From assembly GCF_001570985.1 (NCBI RefSeq), contig NZ_BCSS01000002.1, positions 62,001 to 126,000 of the forward strand: a stretch of 64,000 nucleotides of DNA, in the 5' to 3' direction. The position numbers and the translations under genes were made by a program. Below, piece after piece: positions 1 through 13,607 of the stretch (positions within the stretch are counted from its first letter, which is position 1; every line of letters begins with the position of its first letter). Source of the DNA: Janibacter limosus NBRC 16128 (GTDB taxonomy: Bacteria; Actinomycetota; Actinomycetes; Actinomycetales; Dermatophilaceae). The notes below the pieces were generated by a model that saw only the letters and a list, made by a program, of their open reading frames with translations, was not told the origin of the DNA and ran no database searches.

Positions 1-343
1 GTCGACGCAGCAGTACGCCATCTCGCGGATCCGGGCCATCGAGCACGGCCGCAGCGTGGCGCACGTCTCCACCGTCGGGGTCTCCGGGTTCATCAACCCC
101 GACGGGTCGAGCACCCCGACCACGGAGCTCTTCACCGCGGCCCAGCCCGTCGATGACGTCGTCCTGCGCAGTGGTCTGACGATCTCGGACCGTCTCGGAC
201 CGTGGGTCGAGTGGGGGAGCGGCCTCGTGCTGCTCCTGGCCGTGGCGTGGCGACTGCGCCGATCCCGGACGGGTAGGGTCGAGTCCCGGTCGACCGACGA
301 CCGCTCCACCGTCCAGATCGAGGAAGCCTCCACCGGTGCCTGA
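1..343 (+). CDS. lnt: Apolipoprotein N-acyltransferase, C-terminal part
   Basis: This is the last 113 residues of a gene whose start lies left of the window; the reading frame is open from base 2. It matches the end of the nitrilase-like domain of Lnt, including the stretch RAIEHGRSVAHVSTVGVSG and FINPDG, followed by one hydrophobic C-terminal helix (GLVLLLAVAW) and a charged tail. Lnt transfers the third acyl chain onto the N-terminal cysteine of lipoproteins at the membrane. The gene directly downstream, a polyprenol-phosphate mannosyltransferase, overlaps its end by 8 nt; in mycobacteria the two activities are fused in Ppm1, which supports the assignment. The catalytic Glu-Lys-Cys residues lie outside the window and cannot be checked. 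Confidence 0.85.
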   Translation, partial: STQQYAISRIRAIEHGRSVAHVSTVGVSGFINPDGSSTPTTELFTAAQPVDDVVLRSGLTISDRLGPWVEWGSGLVLLLAVAWRLRRSRTGRVESRSTDDRSTVQIEEASTGA

Positions 344-1121
344 CTCCCTCCAGCCGCGTCCGCCGATCGAGCGGGTCGCCGTGCTCATCCCCACCTACAA
401 CGAACGCGACAACCTGCCGCTCGTCGTCGAGCGGGTGCGGGCCGCGGTGCCGACCGCCGATGTCGTGGTCCTCGACGACAACTCTCCTGACGGCACCGGC
501 GAGGTCGCCGATGCATTGGCGGCCGGCGACGATCACGTCAAGGTCCTCCACCGCCAGGGCAAGGAGGGCTTGGGTGCTGCCTACCTCGCCGGCTTCGCGT
601 GGGCGCTCGAGCGGGGGTACGACGCCGTCGTCGAGATGGACGCTGACGGGTCCCACCGCCCGGAGCACCTGCCCACCATGCTCGAGGTCGCGGCAGACGC
701 CGACCTGGTCATCGGCTCGCGCTATGTGCGCGGAGGCAAGATCGTCAACTGGCCGCTGGATCGCAAGGCGATCAGCATGGCCGGCAACATCTACATCAAG
801 GCCATCCTCGGGATGCCGGTCAACGACGCGACGGCCGGTTATCGCGTCTACCGCGCCGAGACGCTGCGCACGATCGGTCTGGACAAGGTCGAGAGCGCGG
901 GCTATGTCTTCCAGACCGATCTGACGGTGCGGACCGTGCGTGCCGGACTCACGGTCGTCGAGGTCCCGATCACCTTCATCGAGCGTGAGATCGGCGACTC
1001 CAAGATGGACGGGGACGTGGTCCGCGAGTCGATGGCGCGCATCACGCGCTGGGGCCTGGCCCATCGCCGAGGACAGCTGCTGCGACTCCTCGACCGAGAG
1101 CCGACCTGGCACCGACTGTGA
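336..1121 (+). CDS. ppm: Polyprenol monophosphomannose synthase (GT2)
   Basis: The 261-residue protein is a family-2 glycosyltransferase that would transfer mannose from GDP-mannose to polyprenyl phosphate at the inner membrane face, supplying mannose for lipoglycans and protein O-mannosylation. The nucleotide-binding motif PTYNERDN is at residues 19-26, DDNSPDGT at 47-54 and the metal-binding MDADGSH with Asp102/Asp104. No C-terminal membrane domain is present, as in soluble Dpm1-type enzymes. The GTG start at 336 overlaps the lnt stop by 8 nt, and its own TGA overlaps the GTG of fxsA, so lnt-ppm-fxsA is very probably one operon. The start agrees with the expected N-terminus a short distance before the first beta strand. 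Confidence 0.92.
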   Translation: MPDSLQPRPPIERVAVLIPTYNERDNLPLVVERVRAAVPTADVVVLDDNSPDGTGEVADALAAGDDHVKVLHRQGKEGLGAAYLAGFAWALERGYDAVVEMDADGSHRPEHLPTMLEVAADADLVIGSRYVRGGKIVNWPLDRKAISMAGNIYIKAILGMPVNDATAGYRVYRAETLRTIGLDKVESAGYVFQTDLTVRTVRAGLTVVEVPITFIEREIGDSKMDGDVVRESMARITRWGLAHRRGQLLRLLDREPTWHRL

Positions 1122-1621
1122 TCCACGGACCTGCACCGACACGGCGCCGCCGCCGACTGGCGCTGGTGCCCCTTGCCCTGGTGCTCTGGGTGATCCTCGA
1201 GGTGGCCGTCCTCATCGCGGTCGGTCGCTGGATCGGCTTCTGGCCGACGCTGCTCCTCGTCATCGTGCTCTCCGCGCTCGGCGCCTGGCTCCTGCGTCGC
1301 GAGGGCCGCAAGACCTGGCAGTCGCTGCGGACGGCACTGCGCAGCGGCCAGATGCCCAGTCGAGAGATCGCGGACGCCGTGCTCGTCTTCGTCGGCGGCG
1401 TGCTGCTCACCCTGCCCGGCTTCGTCTCCGGCATCGTCGGCCTGGTCTTCGTGCTGCCGTTCACCCGCCCGGTCGCCCGCATCGGGCTCGAGACACTCGT
1501 CGCCCGACGGTTGCTGGCCGCGGGGATGTCGGTGGCTCCCGGGGAGGCGCGGGTGCGTCGCACACGTGACCGTGACGAGGGTGACGGCGACGTCGTGGAG
1601 GGCGAGATCGTCGACGAGTGA
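1118..1621 (+). CDS. fxsA: FxsA family membrane protein
   Basis: A 167-residue integral membrane protein of the FxsA (suppressor of F exclusion of phage T7) family; its biochemical role is not known. After a basic N-terminus (TRRRRRLA) there are hydrophobic segments at roughly residues 14-36 and 38-56, then a cytosolic loop RREGRKTWQSLRTALRSGQM typical of the family, a third hydrophobic stretch (about 85-112) with LTLPGFVSG, and an acidic C-terminal tail. The GTG start overlaps the TGA of the mannosyltransferase gene, indicating translational coupling. FxsA next to ppm and rbpA is a conserved actinobacterial neighbourhood (Rv2050-Rv2053c in M. tuberculosis, from memory). Confidence 0.85.
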   Translation: MIHGPAPTRRRRRLALVPLALVLWVILEVAVLIAVGRWIGFWPTLLLVIVLSALGAWLLRREGRKTWQSLRTALRSGQMPSREIADAVLVFVGGVLLTLPGFVSGIVGLVFVLPFTRPVARIGLETLVARRLLAAGMSVAPGEARVRRTRDRDEGDGDVVEGEIVDE

Positions 1622-1681
1622 CCCTTTGAGGCGGTTGCTTCGCGACCTCCTCAGGGAGCAAAAGGTGCGATGAGTGCGCAC

Positions 1682-1720
1682 GAAGAAACCCGCACGACCA
1701 TCCGGTCGTGCGGGTTCTTC
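1682..1720. terminator. Bidirectional intrinsic terminator between fxsA and rbpA
   Basis: The arms CCCGCACGACC and GGTCGTGCGGG pair perfectly around a 4-nt loop, flanked by GAAGAA on the left and TTCTTC on the right, which extend the stem. It sits between two convergent genes and can serve both directions. There is no long U-tract, as is usual in high-GC actinobacteria. Confidence 0.8.
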
Positions 1721-1736
1721 GATGCCTACGTGATGA

Positions 1737-2093
1737 TCAGGCGGTGCGCTTGCGCGGCTTCTCGCCACGCTTGGCGCGCAGCAGCGCCAGACGCTCCTCG
1801 AGGAGCTCCTCGAGCTCGGGGATGGAGCGACGCTCGAGCAGCATGTCCCAGTGGGTACGCACGTGCTTGGCGGGCTTGAGCTCCGGCTCCGGACCGTCGA
1901 TCAACTTGCCGAGCTTGCCGCAGCGGCACTCCCAGGTGCTGGGGATGTCGGCCTCGACGGAGAAGGGCAACTCGGTCTTGTGGCCGTCGTCGCAGACATA
2001 GCCCGTGATCTGACGGTCGCTGGGGACGACATTGTCCGTCGTCTCCATGCTGAAACTGACCATGCGCGTCCCGCGCAGTGTGCGCTCTGCCAT
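1737..2093 (-). CDS. rbpA: RNA polymerase-binding protein RbpA
   Basis: RbpA binds the beta subunit and principal sigma factor in actinobacteria, stabilises the open complex and affects rifampicin tolerance. The 118-residue product starts MAERTLRGTRMVSFSMET, the canonical N-terminus; an upstream in-frame ATG at 2159 is rejected because the added 22 residues are unlike the family. Visible features are the RbpA core with a zinc-ribbon-like fold (CDDGHKTELPF then ECRCGKLG; Cys-His/Cys-Cys pairs) and the C-terminal sigma-interaction region HVRTHWDMLLERRSIPELEE ending in a basic tail. It is monocistronic and converges on fxsA. A GGAAC-N18-GTT element upstream suggests SigR/SigH-type thiol-stress control, as known for rbpA in Streptomyces. 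Confidence 0.95.
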   Translation of the reverse strand: MAERTLRGTRMVSFSMETTDNVVPSDRQITGYVCDDGHKTELPFSVEADIPSTWECRCGKLGKLIDGPEPELKPAKHVRTHWDMLLERRSIPELEELLEERLALLRAKRGEKPRKRTA

Positions 2094-2119
2094 GTTGCGT
2101 GTCTCCTGGTGCTCTCGCG

Positions 2120-2147
2120 ACGTCTGCGCCCCTGCGTGCGCAGACGT
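2120..2147 (-). promoter_or_regulatory. Inverted repeat in the predicted rbpA leader
   Basis: ACGTCTGCGC and GCGCAGACGT form a perfect 10-bp inverted repeat with an 8-nt spacer. On the minus strand it falls just downstream of the predicted SigR-type promoter and about 27 nt before the rbpA start codon, so it could be an RNA hairpin at the 5' end of the leader or a DNA operator. The sequence is seen; the role is inferred. Confidence 0.5.
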
Positions 2148-2159
2148 CTCATGTCCCAT

Positions 2160-2185
2160 AACGCTGTGGATGCGTTGGATGTTCC
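2160..2185 (-). promoter_or_regulatory. Putative SigR/SigH-type promoter of rbpA
   Basis: Read on the minus strand the sequence is GGAAC (2185-2181), exactly 18 nt, then GTT (2162-2160). This matches the GGAAT/C-N18-19-GTT consensus of the group IV sigma factors SigR (Streptomyces) and SigH (mycobacteria). rbpA of Streptomyces coelicolor is an established SigR target, so both position and spacing support the call. The predicted leader is about 60 nt. Confidence 0.65.
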
Positions 2186-2343
2186 TGCTGCTCGCGTCAT
2201 TGCGTCGCAGCGCCCCTGCCAGACCTGCGTGTGAGCGGACGAACCGCGATCCTCACGGGTCAACGGGTGGGGCGACCCCACAGGATAGCGCGTCTTGGTC
2301 GTGTCGCGCACCTTGTGCCGGATCGGGGCGATAGCCTCGCCTC

Positions 2344-3699
2344 GTGACCGACGCGACGAGGCCTGCGGAGCCGACCACCGCCCTGCGTGCCGAGCCCAAG
2401 GGAGGCCGCGGCCGCATCTTCGGCTGGGCCATGTGGGACTGGGGCGCCCAGCCCTTCAACACGGTGATCACCACCTTCGTCTTCGCGGTCTACCTGACGA
2501 GTGAGAGCTTCGGCTCCACCAACACGACCTCGACAGCGCTGGCGATCGCGACCGCCATCTCGGGGCTGCTCGTCGCTCTGCTGGCACCGGTGCTGGGACA
2601 GAACTCGGACCGCTCGGGCAAGGGCGTGCGCAACCTGCGCGTCCAGACGTGGGTCCTGGCCGCACTGTCGGCGGCCCTGTTCTTCATCAAGCCCGAGCCT
2701 GGCTTCCTCGTCCTGGGCCTGGTCCTGCTCGGCGCTGGCTCGATCATCTCCGAGATCGCCAGCGTCAACTACAACGCGTCGATCGAGCAGGTCGCCTCGC
2801 CGCGCAACATCGGCCGTGTCTCCGGCTTCGGCTGGGGCATGGGCTATCTCGGCGGCATCCTCGTCCTGCTGCTCATCTACTTCCTGTTCATCCAGCCCGA
2901 CGTGGGCCTCTTCGGGGTCACTGACGCCGACGGACTCGACATCCGTGTGTCCATGCTCGTGTGCGGTCTGTGGATCCTGCTCTTCACCTTGCCGGCCTTC
3001 GCGGTGCTCAAGGACACCCCCAAGGAGGCGGCGCCGCGCGTCGGCATCGTCGACTCCTACAAGCTCGTGTGGGACTCGCTGCGTCGCCTGTGGGGACAGT
3101 CGCGCCACACCGTCTACTTCCTCGGCGCCTCAGCCCTCTTCCGTGACGGACTGGCCGGCGTCTTCGCCTTCGGCGCGATCCTGGCTGCCGGGACCTTCGG
3201 CATGTCGGCCGGCGAGGTCGTCATCTTCGGCGCGGTCGCCAACATCGTCGCAGGCATCGCGACCATGCTCTTCGGTCTGCTCGACGACGTGTTGGGGCCC
3301 AAGCGCGTCATCCTCATCTCACTCGTCGCCCTGACGGTCCTCGGCCTCGGCATCTTCATCTTCCACGACGGTGGCAAGACCGTCTTCTGGACGATGGGGC
3401 TCGCGATGACCGCCTTCGTGGGGCCTGCGCAGGCCTCTGCACGCAGCTTCCTCGCGCGCGTCATCCCGGAGGGGCAGGGGGGCGAGATCTTCGGCCTCTA
3501 CGCGACGACAGGCCGGGTCGTGTCGTTCTTGTCGCCTGCAGCTTTCGCCTTCTTCATCTGGGTGGGCTCGGTCGTGACCGACGACGACAACACGCAGTAC
3601 TGGGGGATCCTCGGGATCGCCCTCGTCCTCGTCGCCGGGCTGGCCGTCCTCATCCCCGTCAAGACCCCGCAGGAGCAGGTGGGTCCGCAGGCCGGCTGA
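2344..3699 (+). CDS. MFS transporter, UMF1 family
   Basis: A 451-residue polytopic membrane protein with about 12 hydrophobic segments. The N-terminal motif GWAMWDWGAQPFNTVITTFV and the following YLTS are typical of the UMF1/Atg22-like branch of the major facilitator superfamily, a family without a settled substrate in bacteria. After the first four helices comes a basic loop containing SDRSGKGVRNLR; the middle cytosolic loop spans about residues 225-255 and begins with DTPKEAAP. The C-terminus reads PVKTPQEQVG. The GTG start is the first plausible one before the Ala/Pro-rich cytosolic head. The gene stands alone and converges on the VanY-like gene with 1 nt between stop codons. Substrate unknown. 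Confidence 0.82.
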   Translation: MTDATRPAEPTTALRAEPKGGRGRIFGWAMWDWGAQPFNTVITTFVFAVYLTSESFGSTNTTSTALAIATAISGLLVALLAPVLGQNSDRSGKGVRNLRVQTWVLAALSAALFFIKPEPGFLVLGLVLLGAGSIISEIASVNYNASIEQVASPRNIGRVSGFGWGMGYLGGILVLLLIYFLFIQPDVGLFGVTDADGLDIRVSMLVCGLWILLFTLPAFAVLKDTPKEAAPRVGIVDSYKLVWDSLRRLWGQSRHTVYFLGASALFRDGLAGVFAFGAILAAGTFGMSAGEVVIFGAVANIVAGIATMLFGLLDDVLGPKRVILISLVALTVLGLGIFIFHDGGKTVFWTMGLAMTAFVGPAQASARSFLARVIPEGQGGEIFGLYATTGRVVSFLSPAAFAFFIWVGSVVTDDDNTQYWGILGIALVLVAGLAVLIPVKTPQEQVGPQAG

Positions 3700-3700
3700 C

Positions 3701-5059
3701 TCAGCCCGAGTACTCCCAGTGCCACGGCTCCGGCAGTGTGCCGCCCGCCGCTGCCCACGAGGGGTGGAACCAGCCGTACAGGGGCGCGTTCTGCTGCATC
3801 CAGGCGTGCGCAGGGTGACCGAAGTTGTTGATGCCACCGCACAGGTCGAGGGCCTTGCCCAGGCCGTGGTTGCTCGTGCCGGGTGCCGCGGCCCAGCCGC
3901 CCCTGTTTTGCTTGGTCACGACCTGCTCTGCGTAGGAGCGGTAGCTGTCGGTGACGCAGATCAGGTTGCCGGTGTCGCGTTGGTAGGCCTTGCTCATCGC
4001 GTTGAAGGCGGCCGCAGCCTGCGGCCGCAGGGACTCACCCGGTCCGCCCAGGAGGGGACACATGGCGCTCGGCGGGATCTGACCGTTGGGGAAGGTGTCG
4101 CTGTTGGTCGAGCATGGCTTGGCGTCCTCGAACTGGGTGACGTCCTGCCCCAGCTCCTTGAGCGCAGAGGTCAGCCGGTCGCTCGCGCCCTGGGCCTTGT
4201 CGTCGGGGCTGCCGATGAGCGCGTTGACGACGGGTCCGGCCTTTTGCAGCTCCTCGGAGTGCTTGCGACGCAATGTCTCCAGCTCGCTCTTGCGCTCCTT
4301 GAGCACCTTGTCCGCGCGCGACTTGGCCGTGTCGGCGCGCTTCTTGGCCTTGGCGGCCTTGGCCAGCGCCGTGTTCTTCTTCTTGGTCAGCGAGGCCTGG
4401 GTGACGGTGTCCTCGCGTACGAGGTCGACCGAACGGATCCGCTCGTCCGTCAGGTAGCTGAGGTCGCCGGCGGAGTTGCCCGAGGTCTGTGAACCGCTGG
4501 TGATCGTCCCCAGCATGGTGACCGTGTCGGAGTAGCCGCCCTGCGTGTAGGTGTTGAAGGCCCAGTCACGCAGGTCCTGACGCCCCTCCGAGAGGCGACT
4601 CTTGTAGGTGTCGAGCTCGGTCTGAGCCGTGTCCGCCTCGTCCTTGGCGGTGTTGTACTCGTCGCGAGCCTCCGCCTTCTTCTGGAGGAGCTTGTTGGCC
4701 TTCTTGGAGTAGGACTTCAAGGACTTCACCGCTGCCGCGATGTCCTTGTTGTCCTTGACGAGGTCGGCCGTGAGCCGATCGGCCTCGGCGATCTGCGCGT
4801 CGAGGTCATCACCGCCCAGAGGCGTGTCGTTGGTGTCACCGACGGGTGACGTGGCATCGGGTGTCCACGCGACGCTGGGGTCATCAGTCGTGTCGGCGGT
4901 GGGCTCAGTCGTGGTGTCCGAGGTGGGTTCAGTCGTCGTGTCCGTCGGGGGAATGGTGGGCTCGGCGCCAGCCGATGGCGAGAGTGCGATCCCGCTCGCG
5001 AGGCAGAGCGCGAGCACAGCCCGAGTGGTGCCGTTGGGACGGCGGATGCCACGACGCAT
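3701..5059 (-). CDS. Secreted VanY-like D-Ala-D-Ala carboxypeptidase with coiled coil
   Basis: The 452-residue protein begins with a basic stretch and a hydrophobic signal peptide (cleavage likely after SAGA, near residue 32), then a Thr/Asp/Pro-rich spacer (TTEPTSDTTTEPTADTT repeats). A long alpha-helical coiled coil rich in Lys, Ala, Asp and Arg covers about residues 85-285. The C-terminal domain is an M15B (VanY) metallopeptidase: SNHGLGKALDLC provides the His and Asp zinc ligands and EPWHWEYSG the final His, with Tyr/Ser of DSYRSYAEQ also conserved. It probably trims peptidoglycan stem peptides outside the membrane. The coiled coil resembles the N-terminal regulatory helices of NlpC/P60 and FtsEX-linked hydrolases. 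The lone ATG at 5059 gives an ideal signal peptide. Confidence 0.85.
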   Translation of the reverse strand: MRRGIRRPNGTTRAVLALCLASGIALSPSAGAEPTIPPTDTTTEPTSDTTTEPTADTTDDPSVAWTPDATSPVGDTNDTPLGGDDLDAQIAEADRLTADLVKDNKDIAAAVKSLKSYSKKANKLLQKKAEARDEYNTAKDEADTAQTELDTYKSRLSEGRQDLRDWAFNTYTQGGYSDTVTMLGTITSGSQTSGNSAGDLSYLTDERIRSVDLVREDTVTQASLTKKKNTALAKAAKAKKRADTAKSRADKVLKERKSELETLRRKHSEELQKAGPVVNALIGSPDDKAQGASDRLTSALKELGQDVTQFEDAKPCSTNSDTFPNGQIPPSAMCPLLGGPGESLRPQAAAAFNAMSKAYQRDTGNLICVTDSYRSYAEQVVTKQNRGGWAAAPGTSNHGLGKALDLCGGINNFGHPAHAWMQQNAPLYGWFHPSWAAAGGTLPEPWHWEYSG

Positions 5060-5165
5060 TGATGTTCTCCTGAAAGCAGACCGGGGTCATCTTAGGCCCG
5101 ATGGGGGACTGGCGTACATGCCCTGTGATCAGGACCGCGTGCACGCAGCCCACGGCCACGGAGGA

Positions 5166-6020
5166 TCAGCCCCCTCGGGTGCCGCTCGTTGCCTTCTTCG
5201 ACGTGGCCTTCTTGGTCGCGGACTTCTGGGTCGCTCGGGTGGTGGAGGAGTCGGTCGACCGAGCGGCCACCTTGCGGGCCTTGGTCCGCAACCGCACCTG
5301 GCGCAGGGAGCCCTCGGCGCGGGTCTCGAGGTAGGGCTGCTCCTCGACCAGCGTGGAGAGCTTTTGGTGGCCGAAGGCCCGTGGGTCGAAGTCTGCCTGG
5401 GCGCGACTCAGGTGCTGTCCGACGGTGCCGAGCGTGCTCCAGCCGTCATCCCCGGAGGTCGCGTTGATCGCCTTGGTCAACGCGGACTGCAGGTTGACCG
5501 TGGCCTCGGGAGCCTCCACCGACTCCTCGGCGCGACCCCCTTCGTCCTTGCTGTCGTCCTCGTCTCGGGCCTGCTCCTGGAGCAGCTCGAGGAAGATGAA
5601 CTGGTCGACCGCGCGACGCAGCGACTCCGGCGTCTTGCGCAGACCCAGCCCGTAGACACGCTTGCCCGACTCACGCAGCCGGGTGGCCAGCCGAGTGAAG
5701 TCGGAGTCGGAGGAGACAAGGGCGAAGGCCTCGACATTGCCCTGCCAGAGCAGGTCCATCGCGTCGATGATCAGGGCAGAGTCGGTGGAGTTCTTGCCGA
5801 CGGTGTAGGCGAACTGCTGCACGGGCTGGATGGCATTGCGGTGCAGCTCGGGCTTCCAGCCGCCCAACTGGGTGGTCGTCCAGTCGCCGTAGGCCCGCTT
5901 GACCGTCGGCGTGCCGTACTTGGCGAGCTCCTCGAGGACTGCCGCCGTGTGCTTGGCCGAGACGTTGTCGCAGTCGATGAGCACGGCGATGCGGGTGGAG
6001 GTGCTGGTGAGGGCGTCCAT
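5166..6020 (-). CDS. NYN-domain protein with C-terminal LOTUS/OST-HTH domain
   Basis: The 284-residue protein has an N-terminal NYN (PIN-like, LabA/DUF88) domain over about residues 8-150: ALIDCDN-type first acidic motif (Asp16, Asp18), DSALIIDAMDLLW, and SSDSDFTRLATRLRE with the second acidic cluster. Residues about 185-255 (LTKAINATSGDDGWSTLG to QVRLRTKAR) fit an OST-HTH/LOTUS RNA-binding domain, followed by a Lys/Ala/Thr-rich basic tail. Such proteins are predicted Mg2+-dependent RNases with an RNA-reading module. ATG at 6020 is chosen over a TTG at 6029 because GGTAGG lies about 9 nt ahead of it. It is read towards the VanY-like gene. The biological target is unknown. Confidence 0.82.
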   Translation of the reverse strand: MDALTSTSTRIAVLIDCDNVSAKHTAAVLEELAKYGTPTVKRAYGDWTTTQLGGWKPELHRNAIQPVQQFAYTVGKNSTDSALIIDAMDLLWQGNVEAFALVSSDSDFTRLATRLRESGKRVYGLGLRKTPESLRRAVDQFIFLELLQEQARDEDDSKDEGGRAEESVEAPEATVNLQSALTKAINATSGDDGWSTLGTVGQHLSRAQADFDPRAFGHQKLSTLVEEQPYLETRAEGSLRQVRLRTKARKVAARSTDSSTTRATQKSATKKATSKKATSGTRGG

Positions 6021-6050
6021 GGTCGGCAACCTACCTGTCGGTGGAGCACA

Positions 6051-6794
6051 TCACGCCTGCTCCTCCGCGAGCCACTGGTCGTGGGTCACCCCACCGATGT
6101 GGCTGTCGGCTCGAGCGAGCAGCAGATCCCCTCGCAGTCCGCGTCCGAAGGCGCCGGGCATCGGGAACTCGATGACGCGGACCCGCTCGCGCCGCACTGC
6201 CAGGACCAGGCGAGCCATCTCGGCGACGGTCATCACCTCGGGTCCGGCGATGGAAGGCCCCTCGCCCCGGGGCTCGCCCTCGGCGACGTCGAGGAGCAGC
6301 TGCGCCACTTCGGACGTCGAGACGGGCTGGGACCGGATCCTCGGGACCATGGCGATGGGGCCGAGGCGGGTGCGCTCCAGCGTCTGGAGACCGAACTCGT
6401 GGAACTGTGCGGCTCGCACCACCGTGCCGGTGGGGTCCGCGAGCACGACCAGCTCCTGGGCCCGCTTGCCGCCGTAGTACCCCGAGTCGATCTCGGGTGC
6501 GCCGATGATCGACAGCGCGACGTGGTGGCGCACTCCTGCTGCGCGGCCGGCCGACAGCAGGTTGCCTGTCACGCGCTCGAAGAAGGCGACCGACTTCGGA
6601 CCTGACATCGTGAGCACGGAGGTCACATCGATGACCGCATCGACCCCGGCGAGGTGCTGCTCCAACCCGGACGACGAGGTGAGGTCCACCCCCTTCGCAC
6701 GGGAGAGGACGACGACCTCGTGACCGCGCCGCTCGGCGGCCGCGACGATGGTCCGACCCACGACGCCGGTGCCACCGGCGACGGCAAGGCGCAC
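6051..6794 (-). CDS. NAD(P)H-binding atypical SDR-family protein
   Basis: A 247-residue Rossmann-fold protein. The nucleotide-binding motif VAGGTGVVGRTIV occurs at residues 4-16, followed by SRAKGVDLTSSSGLEQHLAG and DAVIDVTSV as in the atypical SDR5/NmrA-like group, which often lack the full catalytic triad. Residues YYGGKRAQELV could supply Tyr and Lys. The GTG start at 6794 directly precedes the VRLAVAGG strand and is only 1 nt past the TGA of the universal stress protein gene, so the gene ends a three-gene operon (permease, stress protein, this protein). Substrate not predictable; it may be a redox sensor or a small-molecule reductase. Confidence 0.8.
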   Translation of the reverse strand: MRLAVAGGTGVVGRTIVAAAERRGHEVVVLSRAKGVDLTSSSGLEQHLAGVDAVIDVTSVLTMSGPKSVAFFERVTGNLLSAGRAAGVRHHVALSIIGAPEIDSGYYGGKRAQELVVLADPTGTVVRAAQFHEFGLQTLERTRLGPIAMVPRIRSQPVSTSEVAQLLLDVAEGEPRGEGPSIAGPEVMTVAEMARLVLAVRRERVRVIEFPMPGAFGRGLRGDLLLARADSHIGGVTHDQWLAEEQA

Positions 6795-6795
6795 C

Positions 6796-7275
6796 TCAGG
6801 ACGTCTTCTTGCCGCGTCGGGCTCGCGGGACGGGCCGGACGACGAGCACGGGACATGGTGCCGTCGCCTGCACACGCTGCGCGGTGCTGCCGATGAGGAC
6901 GGTGTCGGTGAGGCCGCGGCTGCCGCTCGCGAGCACGATCAGCTCGATGTTGGACACCTTGGCCGCCCGGTTGATCTCGCTCGAGGGCGTGCCACTGCGG
7001 ACCCGCGTGCGCACCGTGGTCTCCGACCAGTCGTCGAACTCGGCAGCGATGACGGCAACGGCCGCCTCGGCCTCTGCCTTGAAGGAGCTGCTGAGCAAGG
7101 GCTTGGGCGCCTTGGCGTCGGCGGAGATCTCGTCGACGAAGGAGACGCTGGCCAGCGGCCGCGTCACGGCGAGCACGAGGATCCCCGTGACCTTGCTCGG
7201 ATCGGCGAAGGACTTGAAGTGGCGGGCGGCGCGCAAGGACTGGCGCGAACCGTCGGTGGCGATGAGGACGTGCAT
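6796..7275 (-). CDS. Universal stress protein, UspA family
   Basis: The 159-residue protein is a single Usp domain. The N-terminus MHVLIATDGSRQSLRAARH matches the first beta strand and the adenine-contacting Asp, and the ATP-binding signature G-x2-G-x9-G-S is present as SGSRGLTDTVLIGSTAQRV near the C-terminus, so it is predicted to bind ATP. The tail PVPRARRGKKTS is basic. It lies between an APC permease (1-nt gap) and an NAD(P)-binding protein (1-nt gap). Usp genes directly after amino-acid permeases are common, and the protein may regulate the transporter, which is inference. Confidence 0.9.
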   Translation of the reverse strand: MHVLIATDGSRQSLRAARHFKSFADPSKVTGILVLAVTRPLASVSFVDEISADAKAPKPLLSSSFKAEAEAAVAVIAAEFDDWSETTVRTRVRSGTPSSEINRAAKVSNIELIVLASGSRGLTDTVLIGSTAQRVQATAPCPVLVVRPVPRARRGKKTS

Positions 7276-7276
7276 G

Positions 7277-8653
7277 TCAGCTCTCCAGGTTGGTCGAGGG
7301 GCGTCGACCGCCGACGAGGCGTTCGACGATGAAGAGGACGACGCCGACGGCCAGCAGGGCGGCGCAGTAGATGAGCGACCCCGGGTCGTCGTAGATGACG
7401 TAGCCGAGGATGAGGAAGTTGGCGACCACCCCGATGGCGAGCAAGGGACGTGATGCGCGGAAGGCCTCCTCGGTCCGGTCGTGCTGGTCCAGCTTGACCG
7501 CGGAGATGATGACCAGGGCGTAGATCAGGAGGGTGAAGACGACCGTGACATTGGCCAGCTGGGCCAGGTCCGCGCCCGAGACGAGCAGCCCCGCGATGAC
7601 CAGGACGGAGAAGAGGATCGCCAGCCACGGCACCTGACGACTGCTCACCTTGGCGAAGGGAGCGGGGACGACGTCCTCGCGGGCCATGCCGTACAGGATG
7701 CGCGACTCGGTCACGAGGCAGACGAGACAGGTGTTGGTGATGGCGACCATGGCGATGATGGCGAAGATGATCGTCAGGACGGCCACGGACAAGGGTAGGA
7801 TGCCCACCTTGACGACCTCGAGCAGCGCGGCGTCGGACTGGGCCAGCTGCTCGATCGGGACGGTGATCGCCGCCGTGACCGCGATGAGGACGTAGAGGAC
7901 CCCGGCGGTGGCCATGCCACCGATGAGGGCTCGCGGGAAGTCGCGACGCGGGTTCTGCGTCTCTTCGGCCAAGTTGGCCGCATTCTCGAAGCCGGTCATG
8001 GCGAAGAAGGCCAGGGCGACACCGGCGAGCAACCCGAGCGCGGGGTTGCTCTCGGTGGAGAACTCGGTGATCCGGGAGAAGTCGACCTTGCCCTGGACGG
8101 TGGCCACGACACCGATGATGAGCACGATGACCAGACCAGTGATCTCGATGAAGGTCATGATCATGTTGGCCACGACCGACTCGGTGATGCCGACGAAGTT
8201 GATGATCGCCAGTCCGACGATGAAGGCCAGGGCCACCACGAGGGCCGGCGCTGCCGCCCACACCTCGCCGAAGTACTGCGCGAATCCCGTGGCGAGAGAC
8301 CCGGCCGCGGCATAGCTCGCGGAGAGCATGCAGAAGGTGATGAAGAAGGTGAGCGTCTTGTTCTTGAAGGCCTTGTTGACGTAGAGCGCGGCGCCCGCAG
8401 CCTGGGGGTACTTGGTCACGAGCTCCGCGTAGGCCAGGCCGGTGATCGTCGCGACCGTGACACCCACGGCGAAGGCCGCCCAGAAGGCGCCCCCGACGGC
8501 GCCGGCGACCAGACCGATGAGGACATAGATACCGGACCCGAGGACGTCGCCCAGGACGTAGAAGTAGAGCAGGCGGCCGGTGACACCTTGCTTGAGCTCG
8601 GAGTCCTCGTTGACATGGGCGCCACCCCCGGGGCTGGCTGTGTCGACCGACAT
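7277..8653 (-). CDS. APC family amino acid permease
   Basis: The 458-residue protein has about 12 transmembrane helices plus a short C-terminal tail. The first helix LGSGIYVLIGLVAGAVGG contains the unwound G-S-G-I-Y motif that holds the substrate backbone in APC-superfamily carriers, and PQAAGAALYVNKAF and GFENAANLAEETQNPRRDFP match family motifs. It probably imports amino acids or a related amine by proton symport. ATG at 8653 is preferred to an upstream GTG-type start because GGAGGAAGG lies ahead of it. It is the first gene of an operon with the stress protein and the NAD(P)-binding protein. A CRP/GlxR-like palindrome lies about 50 nt upstream. Confidence 0.88.
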   Translation of the reverse strand: MSVDTASPGGGAHVNEDSELKQGVTGRLLYFYVLGDVLGSGIYVLIGLVAGAVGGAFWAAFAVGVTVATITGLAYAELVTKYPQAAGAALYVNKAFKNKTLTFFITFCMLSASYAAAGSLATGFAQYFGEVWAAAPALVVALAFIVGLAIINFVGITESVVANMIMTFIEITGLVIVLIIGVVATVQGKVDFSRITEFSTESNPALGLLAGVALAFFAMTGFENAANLAEETQNPRRDFPRALIGGMATAGVLYVLIAVTAAITVPIEQLAQSDAALLEVVKVGILPLSVAVLTIIFAIIAMVAITNTCLVCLVTESRILYGMAREDVVPAPFAKVSSRQVPWLAILFSVLVIAGLLVSGADLAQLANVTVVFTLLIYALVIISAVKLDQHDRTEEAFRASRPLLAIGVVANFLILGYVIYDDPGSLIYCAALLAVGVVLFIVERLVGGRRPSTNLES

Positions 8654-8701
8654 GAGCGGGCCTTCCTCCCGGGTGCGCCACCGTTGTGGCGCCGTGGTTC
8701 C

Positions 8702-8717
8702 CGTGACCCAGATCACA
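8702..8717. promoter_or_regulatory. CRP/GlxR-like palindrome upstream of the permease operon
   Basis: The sequence CGTGACCCAGATCACA has the GTGA-N6-TCAC core of cAMP-receptor-protein family sites and lies 49 nt before the permease ATG. No CRP gene is in the window, so the assignment rests on the motif only. Confidence 0.4.
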
Positions 8718-8783
8718 ACGGATGCGCGCCGCTGTCAACTGGAAGCGGGCGCCGGCGTGTCGTCGGACGCGTCCTGCGCCGGA

Positions 8784-9233
8784 CTAGGCGTCGTCCGCCG
8801 GACGCGTGCGGCCACGCTTGATCTGGCCACGCTGGGACTTGGCCTCGAGCCGCCGACGCTGCGAACCACGGGTGCGCTTGGTGGCGCGCCGGGGTGGGGG
8901 AGGAGGTGAGAGTGCTTCGCGCAGAAGGGAGGCCATCCGCTCACGCGCAGCGCTACGGTTGCGTCGCTGGGACCTGAACTCGGACGCGTCGACGGTCAGG
9001 ATCGTGCCCACGAGCCTCGGGGTTAGGCGCTCGAGAGCGCGCTCCCGCTGCCGGTCGGTGAGCGCTGTGGTCGTGGCGAGGTCGAGGGAGAGCTGTACGC
9101 GCGAGTCGGTCGTGTTGACGCCCTGGCCGCCGGGACCGCTGGAGCGGCTGAACTGCTCGGACAACTCCGGTCCGGGGATCAACAGTCCATCTGGGATCCC
9201 CGGACCGGGAGGGACGCGCAGCTCGTTCACCAC
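8784..9233 (-). CDS. arfB: ArfB-type peptidyl-tRNA hydrolase (ribosome rescue)
   Basis: The 149-residue protein is a class I release-factor-like hydrolase that rescues ribosomes stalled on mRNAs lacking a stop codon. The catalytic GGQ is at residues 35-37 within SSGPGGQGVNTTDSRVQL, the exact family signature. The protein lacks the codon-recognition domain of RF1/RF2 and ends in a long Arg/Lys-rich tail (RATKRTRGSQRRRLEAKSQR) that in ArfB enters the empty mRNA channel. Length agrees with E. coli ArfB (140). The start is GTG at 9233 or the adjacent GTG at 9230; no strong ribosome-binding site separates them. It is divergent from the small membrane protein gene downstream on the other strand. 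Confidence 0.92.
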   Translation of the reverse strand: MVNELRVPPGPGIPDGLLIPGPELSEQFSRSSGPGGQGVNTTDSRVQLSLDLATTTALTDRQRERALERLTPRLVGTILTVDASEFRSQRRNRSAARERMASLLREALSPPPPPRRATKRTRGSQRRRLEAKSQRGQIKRGRTRPADDA

Positions 9234-9310
9234 CTCAGGATGTCAGGCGTGGAGGAAGGTCGTCTCGCCACGTGGGCATGGCGGATCACGCAGTGCGCCA
9301 TGCTGAGGAC

Positions 9311-9703
9311 ATGACTCTCAACCGATCCGAACGAGGGACAGCCGGACTGCTGCTGGGGGTCGGCGCCTTCCAGATGGCGCTCGTGGCGGGTGCGCCCTGG
9401 GGCAGGGCGGCCTTCGGGGGAGCCCGCCATGGTCGGCTCCCGACACATCTACGCAGGGTGAGCGCGGTGGCCTGTGTCGGGTACACCGGCGCTGCCGCGC
9501 TCGTCCTCAGCGAGGTCGGTTCACCGCGGACCCGGGCCGCCGGGTTCACCGGACTGACGGCGCTCATGTGCATGGGCACTCTGGCAAACGGCGCCTCCCG
9601 CTCGCCGGTCGAGCGCGCCATCTGGACGCCGGTGGCCGGCCTGACCGCGGCGCTGTCCTGGCGTGCGCGTCAGGACAAGATCCAGGACATCGTCTGGTTG
9701 TAG
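9311..9703 (+). CDS. Small membrane protein of unknown function
   Basis: A 130-residue hydrophobic protein that I do not recognise. There are about four potential membrane segments: GLLLGVGAFQMALVAGA, SAVACVGYTGAAALVL, GFTGLTALMCMGTLAN and TPVAGLTAALSW, with basic residues on the connecting loops. ATG at 9311 is chosen because TGAGGA lies just upstream; an in-frame ATG at 9272 would add a charged, family-unlike extension. Its 3' end overlaps the convergent ketopantoate reductase gene by 34 nt. It might be a DoxX- or DUF-type small integral membrane protein, but nothing in the sequence decides this. Confidence 0.65.
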   Translation: MTLNRSERGTAGLLLGVGAFQMALVAGAPWGRAAFGGARHGRLPTHLRRVSAVACVGYTGAAALVLSEVGSPRTRAAGFTGLTALMCMGTLANGASRSPVERAIWTPVAGLTAALSWRARQDKIQDIVWL

Positions 9704-10575
9704 GGGGTCTCGAGGCCATGGCGCTCGCCGAGCGCGACGACCCGGTCTGCGAAGAGCGCCACCTCGGTCGGCCGCCCGGCCAGGACGTCCTGGAGCATCG
9801 AGGTCTGGCCACTGCCTGGGAGTCCCAGCAGAACCCGGTCCCAGCGCTCGCGGTCGTCGTCCCCGAGGGCGACCCCTTCGGCGTTGGCGACGTCGATGAC
9901 CTCTTCGCGCAGGGCGACCATCAGGGAGCGGGGGGCGCCATCGTGGGTGAATTCCTCGTAGGGCAGTCGCAGCACTGCTGACGCTTGGTTGATGCAGGTG
10001 TTGACCATGAACTTCCACCACATCTCGTGCTGCATGTCCTCGGGTGCGTCCCAGGCGAGCCCGGCCCGGCCGAGGGCGGCTCCCACGGCATCGACGGCGG
10101 ACCCGGGCGCCAGCCCGTCTGAGGTGCCGATGACGAGTCGGCCGGGTGAGAGGTAGGTGACCGCGTTGCCCTCACGCCCCGCGGCCATGCCGAGCGCGAT
10201 GCACAGCAGGACCTGGCCGGCTCCGAAGCGGGCAGCGATGACCTCCTCGCTGTCGAGACCGTTGAGCACGGAGACGAAGAGGGTGTCAGGACCGACGAAG
10301 GGGGTGAGATCGGCCAGCGCATCGGCAAGGTCGTGGTGCTTGACGGCCACGATGGCCAGGTCGACGGGCGGCAGCTCATCACGTGCCGGGTCGGCAACCT
10401 CCGCGGACAGGGCAGTCCCGTTGACGGTCAAGCCGTTGCGCCGCAACCGATCTGCACGCTCACCAGATGCGACGAGGACTGTCTCCACGCCCCCTTCGAC
10501 GAAGTGCGCCGCGTACATGGCCCCCATGGCCCCGGCACCGACGACGGCCACTGACTGGATCTCTCTCGTGCTCAC
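9670..10575 (-). CDS. panE: 2-dehydropantoate 2-reductase family protein
   Basis: The protein of about 301 residues has an N-terminal Rossmann domain (VAVVGAGAMGAMYAAHF, NADPH-binding) and a C-terminal ketopantoate-reductase dimer domain. Family residues are visible: AVKHHD with the Lys of the cofactor site, NGLDSEE with Asn, and WWKFMVNTCINQASAV with the catalytic Lys and Asn. The reaction would be NADPH-dependent reduction of ketopantoate to pantoate in coenzyme A synthesis, although many such proteins are paralogues acting on other 2-oxo acids. GTG at 10575 is preferred to TTG at 10584; neither has a clear ribosome-binding site. The stop region overlaps the convergent small membrane protein by 34 nt. 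Confidence 0.82.
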   Translation of the reverse strand: MSTREIQSVAVVGAGAMGAMYAAHFVEGGVETVLVASGERADRLRRNGLTVNGTALSAEVADPARDELPPVDLAIVAVKHHDLADALADLTPFVGPDTLFVSVLNGLDSEEVIAARFGAGQVLLCIALGMAAGREGNAVTYLSPGRLVIGTSDGLAPGSAVDAVGAALGRAGLAWDAPEDMQHEMWWKFMVNTCINQASAVLRLPYEEFTHDGAPRSLMVALREEVIDVANAEGVALGDDDRERWDRVLLGLPGSGQTSMLQDVLAGRPTEVALFADRVVALGERHGLETPYNQTMSWILS

Positions 10576-10760
10576 ACGGCCCAAGGTATGTCACGGAAGG
10601 CACCCCGCCGATGGGCGTTCCTCGCGCTGCGGCCCGCGGTCACGGCGACCGACGAGCCCGACCACCGACAAGCAGCCGATGGTCGAGGCCACGGAGGCCG
10701 GACTCACCAGCACCTGACCGGCACCGCCGCGATGTCGCTCTCGCGCCCTACGGTAGGTCC

Positions 10761-11804
10761 ATGCCTCTGACCGGAGCCGTGCGCGCCACGAATCGCGACC
10801 CCCTTCTCCAGATGGTCAAGACGGCCCTCGCCACGATCCTTGCCTGGGTCGTGTCCGATCTGATCATCCCCGATGGTCCGCCGCCGGTCTTCGCCGCGAT
10901 CGCCGCCATGCTCGTCGTCCAGCCGAGCCTCAACCAGTCGTTGACGAAGGGAGTGGAGCGCAGCGCCGGCGTCATCGCAGGTGTCATGCTCGCCACGGGT
11001 CTCGGGATGGCCTTCGGCAGCGCGTCGTGGGTGGTCCTCGTCGCCGTGTCGGCGGCCCTGGCGATCTCGTGGGCGCTGCGACTGACGAGCGGGTCTGCCA
11101 ACCAGGTCGCGATCAGCGCACTCCTCGTGCTCGCCATCGGGGCATCGACCCCGGACTACGCCTTCGTGCGTGTCATCGAGACGATCATCGGCGCCGTGAT
11201 CGGCGTCGTCATCCATCTGGCTCTCGTCCCGCCCGTGGCGCTCGAGCCGGCTCGAGCGGCGCTCGACGAGCTGGGGGAGGAGACAGCCCAATCGCTCGAG
11301 CGGCTGGCCGACGCGCTCGTGGCACGCAAGACGCGGCCGGGGAGGCTCCTGCTGCTCCACGATGCCCGACGGTTGCACCCGCTGCTCGACGAGGCGCTGG
11401 AGGCCCTGGACGATGCGGATGACTCCTTGCACCTCAACCCCAGGGCCCGTCGTTATCGCGGTGAGCTCGCCCTCATGCGAGAGAGTCTCGACCTCCTGAC
11501 CAAGATCGGCACCCAGGTGCGGGGGATGACCCGTGCCTATGTCGACCACTACGACGACGAGGTGCGTGAGGAGCCGGTCGTCGCCGGTATCGCCGAGGAG
11601 CTCCTGCGAGCCGCGCACGACACCCGGCTGCACCTGCGCCTGGCGGTGCCAGCGCTACGGGCCGAGCACCTCGACGACACGGCTCCGGCCCTCACAGCGC
11701 CCCTGGACGTCAGCGCACCCCACGGAATGCGTTGGATCCTCATCGGGTCCCTCATGGAGGACCTCCGTCGGATCCGGCACGAGCTCGGGGCACAAAGCAC
11801 CTGA
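10761..11804 (+). CDS. FUSC-family membrane protein (aromatic acid exporter-like)
   Basis: The 347-residue protein starts with a FUSC/ArAE-type membrane domain of about five to six helices (residues 18-165), beginning DPLLQMVKTALATILAWVV and including VVQPSLNQSLTKGVERSAG, the conserved loop of the family. A long helical cytosolic region (about 170-347) rich in Glu, Arg, Leu and Asp follows, as in YgaE/ArAE relatives. Proteins of this kind are proposed efflux carriers for aromatic or hydroxylated acids; no partner protein is encoded nearby. ATG at 10761 is preceded by GGTAGG. It is divergent from panE across 185 nt. Substrate unknown. Confidence 0.8.
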   Translation: MPLTGAVRATNRDPLLQMVKTALATILAWVVSDLIIPDGPPPVFAAIAAMLVVQPSLNQSLTKGVERSAGVIAGVMLATGLGMAFGSASWVVLVAVSAALAISWALRLTSGSANQVAISALLVLAIGASTPDYAFVRVIETIIGAVIGVVIHLALVPPVALEPARAALDELGEETAQSLERLADALVARKTRPGRLLLLHDARRLHPLLDEALEALDDADDSLHLNPRARRYRGELALMRESLDLLTKIGTQVRGMTRAYVDHYDDEVREEPVVAGIAEELLRAAHDTRLHLRLAVPALRAEHLDDTAPALTAPLDVSAPHGMRWILIGSLMEDLRRIRHELGAQST

Positions 11805-11834
11805 GGGCGTGGCTCGGCGCTAGCCTCGAGTGTC

Positions 11835-12539
11835 ATGGACGCACTCATGGGGGAGCAGATCGCCCGCGCCGGCCTGACCGACTGGCGCAAGCTGGCGCAG
11901 GGCCTGCACGCCCGATATCTGGCAGATGACTTCACAACGAGCGCGAGATTCGTTGCGGCAGTGGGGGAGGGGGGCGACTCGATCGGTCACCATCCCAGGG
12001 TGTCGATGGGGCCCGGGTTCGTGGACCTGAGGCTCATCTCCGCGGACGCCGTGTACCGCGATGACGACGGCAACGAGCTCGTCTTCGAGTGGGTGACCCA
12101 GCAGGACGTCGACCTCGCGCGGCGGATCACGCAGCTCGCGGCTGAGCAGGGACTGGCAGCCGACCCAGCGTCGGTCAGCCATGTCGAGCTCGGTCTGGAC
12201 ACGTCCGACTCCGCCGCGGTCGCGCCCGTGTGGGCGGCTCTGCTGACCGGTGACGCCGATGCCCAAGGGCACGGTTCGCCGAGCGACGAGATTCGCGACG
12301 TGACGGGACGGGTACCCAACCTGTGGTTCGGCGAGGCTGACGAAGGGGGCAGCGCGCCACGGTCCTTCCACGTCGAGGTCTACGTGGCACCCGAGGTGGT
12401 CGAGCAGCGGGTCGCCGCAGCCGTCGCAGCAGGCGGCATCGTCGTCGACGACAGCCAGTCCCCGGGCCTGACCGTGATCGCCGACCAGGACGGCAACCGA
12501 GGCATTGTCTGCGCCGACACCTCGTCGGCACAGGGTTGA
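11835..12539 (+). CDS. Pterin-4a-carbinolamine dehydratase-like/VOC fusion protein
   Basis: A 234-residue two-domain protein. Residues about 10-105 resemble 4a-hydroxytetrahydrobiopterin dehydratase: GLTDWRKLAQGLHARY, then GDSIGHHPRVSMG with the conserved His-His-Pro and VDLRLIS, ending in the helix DVDLARRITQLA. Residues about 115-230 look like a glyoxalase/VOC-type half domain (VSHVELGLDTSD, FHVEVYVAPEVVEQRVAA, GIVVDDSQSPGLTVIADQDGN). The N-terminal domain suggests a pterin dehydratase or a coactivator relative; the fusion implies a joint role on one small molecule, which is inference. A fresh VOC-gene remnant follows directly. ATG at 11835 is the only sensible start, although no strong ribosome-binding site is visible. 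Confidence 0.78.
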   Translation: MDALMGEQIARAGLTDWRKLAQGLHARYLADDFTTSARFVAAVGEGGDSIGHHPRVSMGPGFVDLRLISADAVYRDDDGNELVFEWVTQQDVDLARRITQLAAEQGLAADPASVSHVELGLDTSDSAAVAPVWAALLTGDADAQGHGSPSDEIRDVTGRVPNLWFGEADEGGSAPRSFHVEVYVAPEVVEQRVAAAVAAGGIVVDDSQSPGLTVIADQDGNRGIVCADTSSAQG

Positions 12540-12610
12540 GGCGCGCATCAGCAGCGCTGATGCCGCTCGTCGGGTGCCATGGTCTCGACGCCTAGGTCGG
12601 TGCTGCCGCG

Positions 12611-12774
12611 ATGAGTCTTGTGTTTTGGGTAGACGACCTCGACATGACCTTCGAGTCGCTGGTCCGGCGGGACACTCCCGCACACACGCCCACCTCAGGA
12701 CACCGGGAATGACGCTCGCCATGGCGCGCGACCCGGACGGCACACTCGTCGAGCTCGTCGCCAAGCGTGTGTGA
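12611..12774 (+). pseudogene. Remnant of a glyoxalase/VOC-family gene
   Basis: Two short conceptual pieces in different frames look like one VOC domain. The first (12611-12712) encodes MSLVFWVDDLDMTFESLVRR and ends in a premature TGA; the second, from about 12690 to the TGA at 12774, encodes GMTLAMARDPDGTLVELVAK, the usual last strand of such domains with its metal-binding Glu. The middle of the domain is missing and the frame is shifted, so this is a deleted and frameshifted gene. It follows an intact protein with a VOC half domain, and may come from an old duplication. Confidence 0.6.
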
Positions 12775-12812
12775 ATCGTGCGGCAGGGGACAGGTCCCGG
12801 CCGCTCTGCAGG

Positions 12813-12837
12813 TGTCACTTCACGACGTGAAGTGACA
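12813..12837. repeat. Perfect inverted repeat abutting dif
   Basis: TGTCACTTCACG and CGTGAAGTGACA are exact reverse complements separated by a single A. The right arm overlaps the outer part of the predicted XerD arm of dif (12830-12837), so the XerD-side sequence GTCACTT is present twice in opposite orientation. This could bind another recombinase protomer or another terminus protein; the role is unknown. Confidence 0.75.
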
Positions 12838-12857
12838 TAATGTGGATTATCGGCGAT
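12830..12857 (-). other. dif: dif site (XerC/XerD chromosome dimer resolution)
   Basis: Read on the minus strand, the 28 bases consist of an 11-nt XerC arm ATCGCCGATAA, a 6-nt centre TCCACA and an 11-nt XerD arm TTATGTCACTT. This agrees at all but three positions with the actinobacterial dif consensus as I remember it (CCGATAAT then two variable bases then ACATTATGTCA), and the XerD-side TTATGT is the most conserved part of all bacterial dif sites. It is intergenic, as expected. dif marks the region where replication ends and chromosome dimers are resolved by FtsK-activated XerCD. Confidence 0.85.
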
Positions 12858-13145
12858 GTGAGGAGATGTGCGTCTGGCCCCCTCCTTGGGCCCCGCGGCC
12901 GCACTCATGGTTGCCTCTGAGAGCCGTTGCCGACGATTGCACTCCACGCGCAGGCCGCTGGTGAATGACGCGCATCAGCGACGCAGGTGTGTCCGGGCAA
13001 AATGGTGCCGCCCGTCCCGCGACCTGGACCTGGCCTCGCCTCCCTGCTCAGGTCTCTTGTGCTTCCACTAGACGGACGAGCACACAACCTGACATAACGC
13101 ACGAGCGCAGTTGCCGCGACGAGCAGGGCTGAGCATGCTGACCGC

Positions 13146-13607
13146 ATGGCTCACACCGTCGACTTCAAGGATGTCTCCACCTCAGGCCTCGAGAGCTCGC
13201 CGGTGGCTGACGCGCTCGCTGGTCTGCGCGCCAACGAGGCTCGCTACTTCAAGAACAAGTACGACCACGCCTTCACGGTCGAGTCCGCAGCACAGGCCAC
13301 GGAGATCGTCGAATGGGTGACCCGGATCCTGCGCGAGGAGCGTGACATCGTCATCTCCTCCCCCGCCCTCGAGGCCAGCCTGGCCGAGGTCGACGGGATC
13401 CGGTGGGCGCACGTCTTCTACGAGTGCGGCCTGGCGGTCAATGTCCTCTACACGCTCGCCGAGGGCGGCAAGCGTGCTGTCGGCTTCAAGCTCTCGGAGG
13501 GCATGGACGCGCCCGAGGAGCTCGCGGCCTTCAAGTGGGCCCGCCAGAAGTCGAAGCTGGCCGGCACGATCCGCGGCACCTATTTCGTCATCAAGGGCGA
13601 TTACTGA
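13146..13607 (+). CDS. Conserved-looking hypothetical protein
   Basis: A 153-residue soluble protein that I cannot place in a family. It is acidic to neutral and mixed alpha/beta: the helix VADALAGLRANEARYFK, a strand-turn region RDIVISSPALEASLAEVDG, then IRWAHVFYECGLAVNVLYTL, and a C-terminal strand IRGTYFVIKGDY. There is no signal peptide or membrane segment. Codon use and G+C content look native. It begins with ATG about 290 nt right of the dif site and ends 12 nt before a convergent pseudogene. Nothing nearby suggests a role. Confidence 0.7.
   Translation: MAHTVDFKDVSTSGLESSPVADALAGLRANEARYFKNKYDHAFTVESAAQATEIVEWVTRILREERDIVISSPALEASLAEVDGIRWAHVFYECGLAVNVLYTLAEGGKRAVGFKLSEGMDAPEELAAFKWARQKSKLAGTIRGTYFVIKGDY

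Follow-up and report, generated by a model that had tools for sequence, protein, structure and literature searches.

In E. coli, XerCD recombination at dif is coupled to FtsK, and polar G-rich motifs, the KOPS (GGGNAGGG), converge on the site (PMC5357621, PMC13342612). The position of dif may differ from the exact meeting place of the replication forks (PMC13342612). For actinobacteria, dif was placed in Corynebacterium with the help of the octamers G(A/T/C)GGGGGA and (T/C)GGGGGAG, termed architecture-imparting sequences (PMC2830990, PMC3350403), and the former paper cites Hendrickson and Lawrence 2006. According to the passage of PMC3025954 on the subject, no actinobacterial dif had been experimentally confirmed as of 2011. 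A literature search combining Janibacter, dif and terminus retrieved no paper.

The window, that is, the whole stretch of 64,000 nucleotides analysed here, belongs to contig C2 of the Janibacter limosus draft genome. A 28-bp sequence on its minus strand, made up of two arms and a 6-nt centre, had been proposed as dif by an earlier inspection of the DNA letters (the sequence-only reading), and its coordinates were found to be exact. The site was composed as follows.

Positions 12830-12857, minus strand: dif site of 28 bp, 5'-ATCGCCGATAA TCCACA TTATGTCACTT-3'.
Positions 12847-12857, minus strand: predicted XerC-binding arm, deduced from the published dif layout.
Positions 12841-12846, minus strand: central region TCCACA, 6 nt, identical in 14 of 17 Janibacter sites (the present one included).
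Positions 12830-12840, minus strand: predicted XerD-binding arm, deduced from the published dif layout.

The two-arm layout of 28 bp fitted the consensus of the phylum. Agreement with the actinobacterial pattern had been put at 25 of 28 positions; this exact figure was not reproduced; it lies between the values obtained here, which varied with the reference used. The site shared 23 of its 28 positions with the dif that PMC3025954 quotes for Frankia alni, and 26 of 28 with the consensus of the 17 Janibacter sites (own included). Against a consensus built from 119 named actinobacterial loci among the matches listed, the value was 23 of 28, which was informative at seven positions only, because the pattern that retrieved these loci (at least 119) fixed the other 21 and left positions 1, 2, 13, 14 and 26-28 free.

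With up to three mismatches allowed, the dif pattern matched the window once and was absent from 100 shuffles of the window. A single match was likewise obtained in the draft genome (3,378,259 bases), where the reversed control pattern gave none at the same threshold. The site was therefore single-copy within the draft; since the genome consists of 101 contigs, there is room for a second dif in the unassembled part. A better match elsewhere, which the sequence-only reading had itself set against its assignment, was not present in the draft within three mismatches. When up to two mismatches were allowed, all 16 genus genomes (own included) carried the pattern, and so did 139 of the 149 family genomes; among the 130 of good quality the count was 128. 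No match was obtained at this threshold in 10 of the 149, including two of the 130, and the reversed-pattern control was represented by none of the matches listed in the genus and family scans. A pattern without mismatches was tried and dropped: it recovered dif in only 6 of 39 relatives, because the outer bases, which vary, had been fixed.

The chromosomal position of dif was assessed relative to dnaA. The search for this gene covered 8 of the 16 genus genomes, namely the own one and those 7 of the 15 relatives that carried dif on contig C1. All seven were single-contig genomes, and four of them were also among the genomes checked for synteny or polarity. The distance from dnaA to dif amounted to 0.482, 0.495, 0.500, 0.492, 0.454, 0.485 and 0.492 of the chromosome in the seven relatives. 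In the own genome dnaA was located on contig C6 and dif on C2, and its dif-to-origin distance was therefore deduced from the relatives. The genes flanking dif on both sides in the window had a corresponding order beside dif in all four relatives checked (G009, G012, G014 and G001). Synteny near dif was less close in G001, which showed a local rearrangement at dif. With G009 as the reference, the dif of G001 (G001:C1:2690578-2690604) was inverted relative to its far flanking genes, and a gene close to it was found on the opposite side; a small inversion around the terminus has probably taken place there.

The immediate surroundings of dif contained the following features.

Positions 10467-11804, plus strand: gene similar to FUSC/aromatic-acid exporters, whose ortholog is close to dif in G009 and G012 and, in G006, on the far side of the island.
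Positions 12575-12774, plus strand: remnant of a decayed VOC/glyoxalase-type gene, recognized by search for 12575-12688 and by eye for 12721-12774.
Positions 12813-12837: perfect palindrome of 25 bases, TGTCACTTCACG-A-CGTGAAGTGACA, which extends into the XerD arm.
Positions 13146-13607, plus strand: gene for a protein of 153 aa without a Pfam family, whose ortholog is 0.3 kb away from dif in G009 and 0.5 kb away in G012.

The site had been described as intergenic and set in a region of gene decay, and both descriptions proved correct. It was located between an ORF ending at 12539 and an ORF starting at 13146, and a mechanically called antisense ORF overlapped it. The segment 12575-12688 matched VOC-type ORFs of G006 and G009, but held a stop in the window. 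VOC-type ORFs without this stop were observed near dif in both of these relatives. Nine flanking proteins were scanned against Pfam and eight had a match, the families including pterin dehydratase/glyoxalase, FUSC-like exporter, ketopantoate reductase and amino acid permease. The palindrome included an inverted copy of the outer part of the XerD arm and, with up to three mismatches, was present in the own genome only out of the 16 of the genus. It could represent a duplication of half an arm or an operator.

The GC skew of the contig was nearly flat, with values of +0.013 to the left of dif and -0.008 to the right, and the samples of G009 gave +0.007 and -0.003. A weak cumulative maximum was recorded in the 70-80 kb bin of the contig, which contains dif. 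The use of GC skew as a terminus marker was abandoned, as the signal was weak and irregular in the window, in the contig and in 28 sampled stretches of G009. The skew check suggested by the sequence-only reading showed no clear inflection in the window, the contig or the G009 samples, and the weak maximum did fall in the bin of dif. A skew change far from 12.8 kb, named there as contrary evidence, was not observed; what was found was a switch of strand polarity within 1.4 kb containing dif.

Because the GC skew was nearly flat, 560 kb of sequence from G009, divided at the dif of that genome, were searched for strand-polar octamers, and CGGGGGAG reached 141:6. G009 served as the discovery genome, and contig C2 (151,647 bases) was left out of motif discovery. 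The heptamer GGGGGAG was considered as a possibly new motif, and this claim was dropped because the motif has been published as an actinobacterial architecture-imparting sequence. In contig C2 it occurred 61 times, with 37 plus and 0 minus copies to the left of dif and 0 plus and 24 minus copies to the right, that is, with 61 of 61 copies oriented toward dif. Its distribution in the window was as follows.

Positions 213, 8896, 9416, 11273, 11849 and 11963 (213-11969), plus strand: six copies of GGGGGAG to the left of dif.
Positions 11963-13358 (C2:73963-75358): switch of GGGGGAG polarity, from the last plus to the first minus copy, 1.4 kb.
Positions 13358-58422, minus strand: 16 copies of GGGGGAG to the right of dif.

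Of 3222 heptamers present 12 times or more, GGGGGAG ranked first at the dif split (61:0), the next one, an overlapping heptamer, reaching 32:2. The split at 75 kb was the best for GGGGGAG out of 14 splits of the contig in 10-kb steps, and the best change point, located without using the position of dif, was found between C2:73963 and C2:75358. GGGGGAG thus displayed the strand bias with a switch at dif that defines an architecture-imparting sequence. The switch settles the placement of dif, GC skew being nearly flat, and the convergence point of the polar motifs of the chromosome was pinned to 1.4 kb in spite of that flatness. Hence, a published heptamer can locate dif in a draft actinobacterial genome.

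These results also bear on the possibility that the site is a chance look-alike and that the true dif is elsewhere. The consensus of the sequence-only reading was applied without a database search and the genome is divided into 101 contigs, both of which leave some room for such an error. However, the pattern was never met in the window shuffles and was unique in the draft, the switch of polarity took place inside the same 1.4 kb, and the position was orthologous to that of dif in the relatives, which makes a look-alike exceedingly improbable. The assignment as dif was borne out by uniqueness, by the switch of polarity, by the position opposite dnaA in the relatives and by synteny.

The polarity of GGGGGAG was shared by the relatives. 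The plus/minus counts to the left and to the right of dif were 41/1 and 1/51 in G009, 31/0 and 1/40 in G012, 28/2 and 1/30 in G014, and 24/0 and 1/29 in G001. Within 80 kb of dif in G009, 92 copies pointed toward dif and 2 away (8 stretches of 20 kb, 17% of the genome having been sampled); elsewhere, 168 pointed toward dif and 19 away (20 stretches), and 8 of these 19 came from the 20 kb next to dnaA. An apparent increase of the motif toward the terminus was modest in this one genome sampled at 17%. In the stretch beside dnaA (G009:C1:1-20000) GGGGGAG was reversed, with 1 copy toward dif and 8 away, and the switch on the origin side therefore seems to be offset from dnaA.

Over the 119 named loci listed (up to 8 kb each), 524 copies were directed toward dif and 7 away, and GGGGGAG was the most polar heptamer when these loci were pooled. 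At least one of the loci, from Prescottella, had no copy. When 13 genera were taken singly, GGGGGAG was outranked in Nocardia, Frankia, Jiangella and several others, and it was outside the top eight heptamers for Frankia, Kribbella and Rhodococcus, with few copies in the latter two.

The cause of the polarity was considered next to these data. About half of the coding sequence of contig C2 (50.6%) was on the leading strand, and 26 copies of GGGGGAG were sense, 23 antisense and 12 unassigned, all according to a crude gene caller; gene orientation does not account for the polarity. The motif may still owe its polarity to something other than FtsK, such as mutation bias or another polar process, and would then mark a replication boundary rather than an FtsK function. 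The passages of PMC2830990 and PMC3350403 on the motif term it an architecture-imparting sequence without assigning FtsK to it, the binding of FtsK to GGGGGAG is putative, the heptamer resembles a Shine-Dalgarno sequence, and CNCC-type heptamers outranked it near dif in Nocardia and Frankia. On the other hand, the motif had no gene-strand preference in the own contig, its ratio of 61:0 far exceeded the overall skew, and in E. coli it is a G-rich motif, likewise polar, that directs FtsK at dif (PMC5357621). A cause other than FtsK was thus regarded as unlikely, and guidance of FtsK by GGGGGAG is preferred.

The genes for the recombination machinery were searched for in the own genome. A XerD gene (339 aa, 331.7 bits against a cut-off of 329.6) was located on the same contig, 75 kb from dif, and adjoins what we take to be a ParA-like gene. 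A XerC gene (314 aa) had XerC as its best model at 326.0 bits, 9 bits below the cut-off of 335.15, and presumably adjoins a DprA-like gene. Two more tyrosine recombinases were encoded on contigs C39 and C57, and an FtsK gamma domain on contig C9 scored 83.4 bits against a cut-off of 30.6. The host thus carries genes for XerC, with its score under the cut-off, XerD and the FtsK gamma domain.

We propose that FtsK at the division septum would travel along both chromosome arms and be steered to dif by the polar GGGGGAG copies, where it would encounter XerCD on two copies of dif. FtsK would activate XerD first and XerC second, and the two recombinases would swap strands between the dif copies, by which a chromosome dimer would be split into monomers. 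The sequence of dif, its uniqueness in the draft, its conservation and place, the polarity of GGGGGAG and the genes for XerC, XerD and FtsK were observed directly. We infer protein binding, activation and the order of strand exchange at dif, and likewise, by analogy with the E. coli KOPS, that actinobacterial FtsK may read GGGGGAG. The sequence at 12830-12857 is very probably the place where joined chromosome copies separate before division. The explanation as the single chromosomal dif of a Janibacter-like actinobacterium, with GGGGGAG-guided FtsK and dimer resolution by XerCD as the proposed mechanism, is held with great confidence.

Additional dif-like sites were observed in some relatives. 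In G006, two sites bounded an interval of 35.8 kb (G006:C7:75180-110970); the first is a dif whose centre is the one common in the genus, and the other has the centre CATAGA. In G017 (contig C29) and G111 (contig C1), a stretch of about 61 kb each held three dif-like sites of mixed orientation and with differing centres; perhaps islands are stacked at the terminus there.

Such sites raise the question of whether the site in the window is an attL/attR half or a relic of an element integrated at dif, and not a plain chromosomal site. Apart from the relatives with two (G006), three (G017 and G111) or, over three contigs, five sites (G108), this would agree with a comparison by eye of the window with G012, in which the flanks were alike on the XerC side and differed on the XerD side, and with the palindrome abutting the XerD arm, which no other genus genome shared. 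Several results nevertheless speak against it: the presence of one dif only in the draft, where an IMEX would have two flanking sites, the common genus form of the centre TCCACA (14 of 17), the orthologs that G009 and G012 have near dif on either side, and the flip of GGGGGAG polarity right at the site. Such an origin was judged very improbable, and the site is treated here as the plain chromosomal dif.

The G006 interval contained 12 copies of GGGGGAG, 10 minus followed by 2 plus, oriented outward to both boundary sites. It was at one point taken for misplaced core chromosome (GlnE, NAD synthase), and this was dropped, its glnE being a truncated copy, 55% identical to a longer glnE elsewhere in G006; the interval was therefore read as a foreign island. 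No mobility families were detected in 10 ORFs scanned of 39 crude calls, which counts against a foreign island. Contig C1 of G128 (63,892 bases) had its first 18.6 kb repeated at the end with 99.9% identity and was therefore read as circular and plasmid-like, with a unit of about 45.3 kb. Ten of its 30 listed ORFs were scanned, and the matches included a relaxase, a TraG/D-type coupling protein and a primase; a ParB-like protein scored 0.7 bits under the cut-off, and four of the ten had no family. All 14 copies of GGGGGAG in one unit of the circle were oriented toward its own dif.

It was tentatively considered that GGGGGAG serves to load FtsK in a large part of Actinomycetota and that small dif-bearing elements obey it as well. 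We regard this combined reading as less likely than not, because the outward pattern was absent between the extra sites of G017 (18 plus and 5 minus over 50 kb) and of G111 (1 plus and 14 minus over 50 kb). In a stretch of 21 kb beside one dif-like site of G111 the motif was unpolarised (2 plus, 2 minus). The supporting cases G006 and G128 were chosen post hoc, and the comparison covered these two, G017 and G111 out of a larger set of genomes that includes the multi-site genomes G108 and G018. For Enterobacteriaceae, PMC11724359 describes control of the FtsK type as becoming the rule once a size of 250 kb is exceeded, and reports that Xer sites tend to be lacking on plasmids of 30-100 kb. If the idea were true, chromosome-style FtsK/Xer control would operate in elements far smaller than this threshold. 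The islands and the small plasmid of the relatives may share the dif/FtsK/Xer machinery.

The locus was finally compared with the described systems. The G006 interval is situated between two dif-like sites, as are the IMEX at dif exemplified by CTX phage and the gonococcal genetic island in PMC5357621; the own draft genome differs from these in that no second site was found in it. The E. coli system (PMC5357621, PMC13342612) follows the same logic of polar G-rich motifs, but the KOPS sequence differs from GGGGGAG, whose recognition by FtsK is putative. Corynebacterium aurimucosum and C. resistens, as described in PMC2830990 and PMC3350403, have the same motif family with a strand switch at the same kind of site. 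For the octamer set of C. aurimucosum, 856 copies on the leading and 61 on the lagging strand were reported chromosome-wide, compared with 61:0 for GGGGGAG in one contig of Janibacter. The Frankia alni dif of PMC3025954 likewise has 28 bp in an 11-6-11 layout, and the positions at which it differs from the present site (1, 2, 13, 26 and 27) also vary among the 119 loci listed. The site itself is a further example of the known kind of dif and no new kind.
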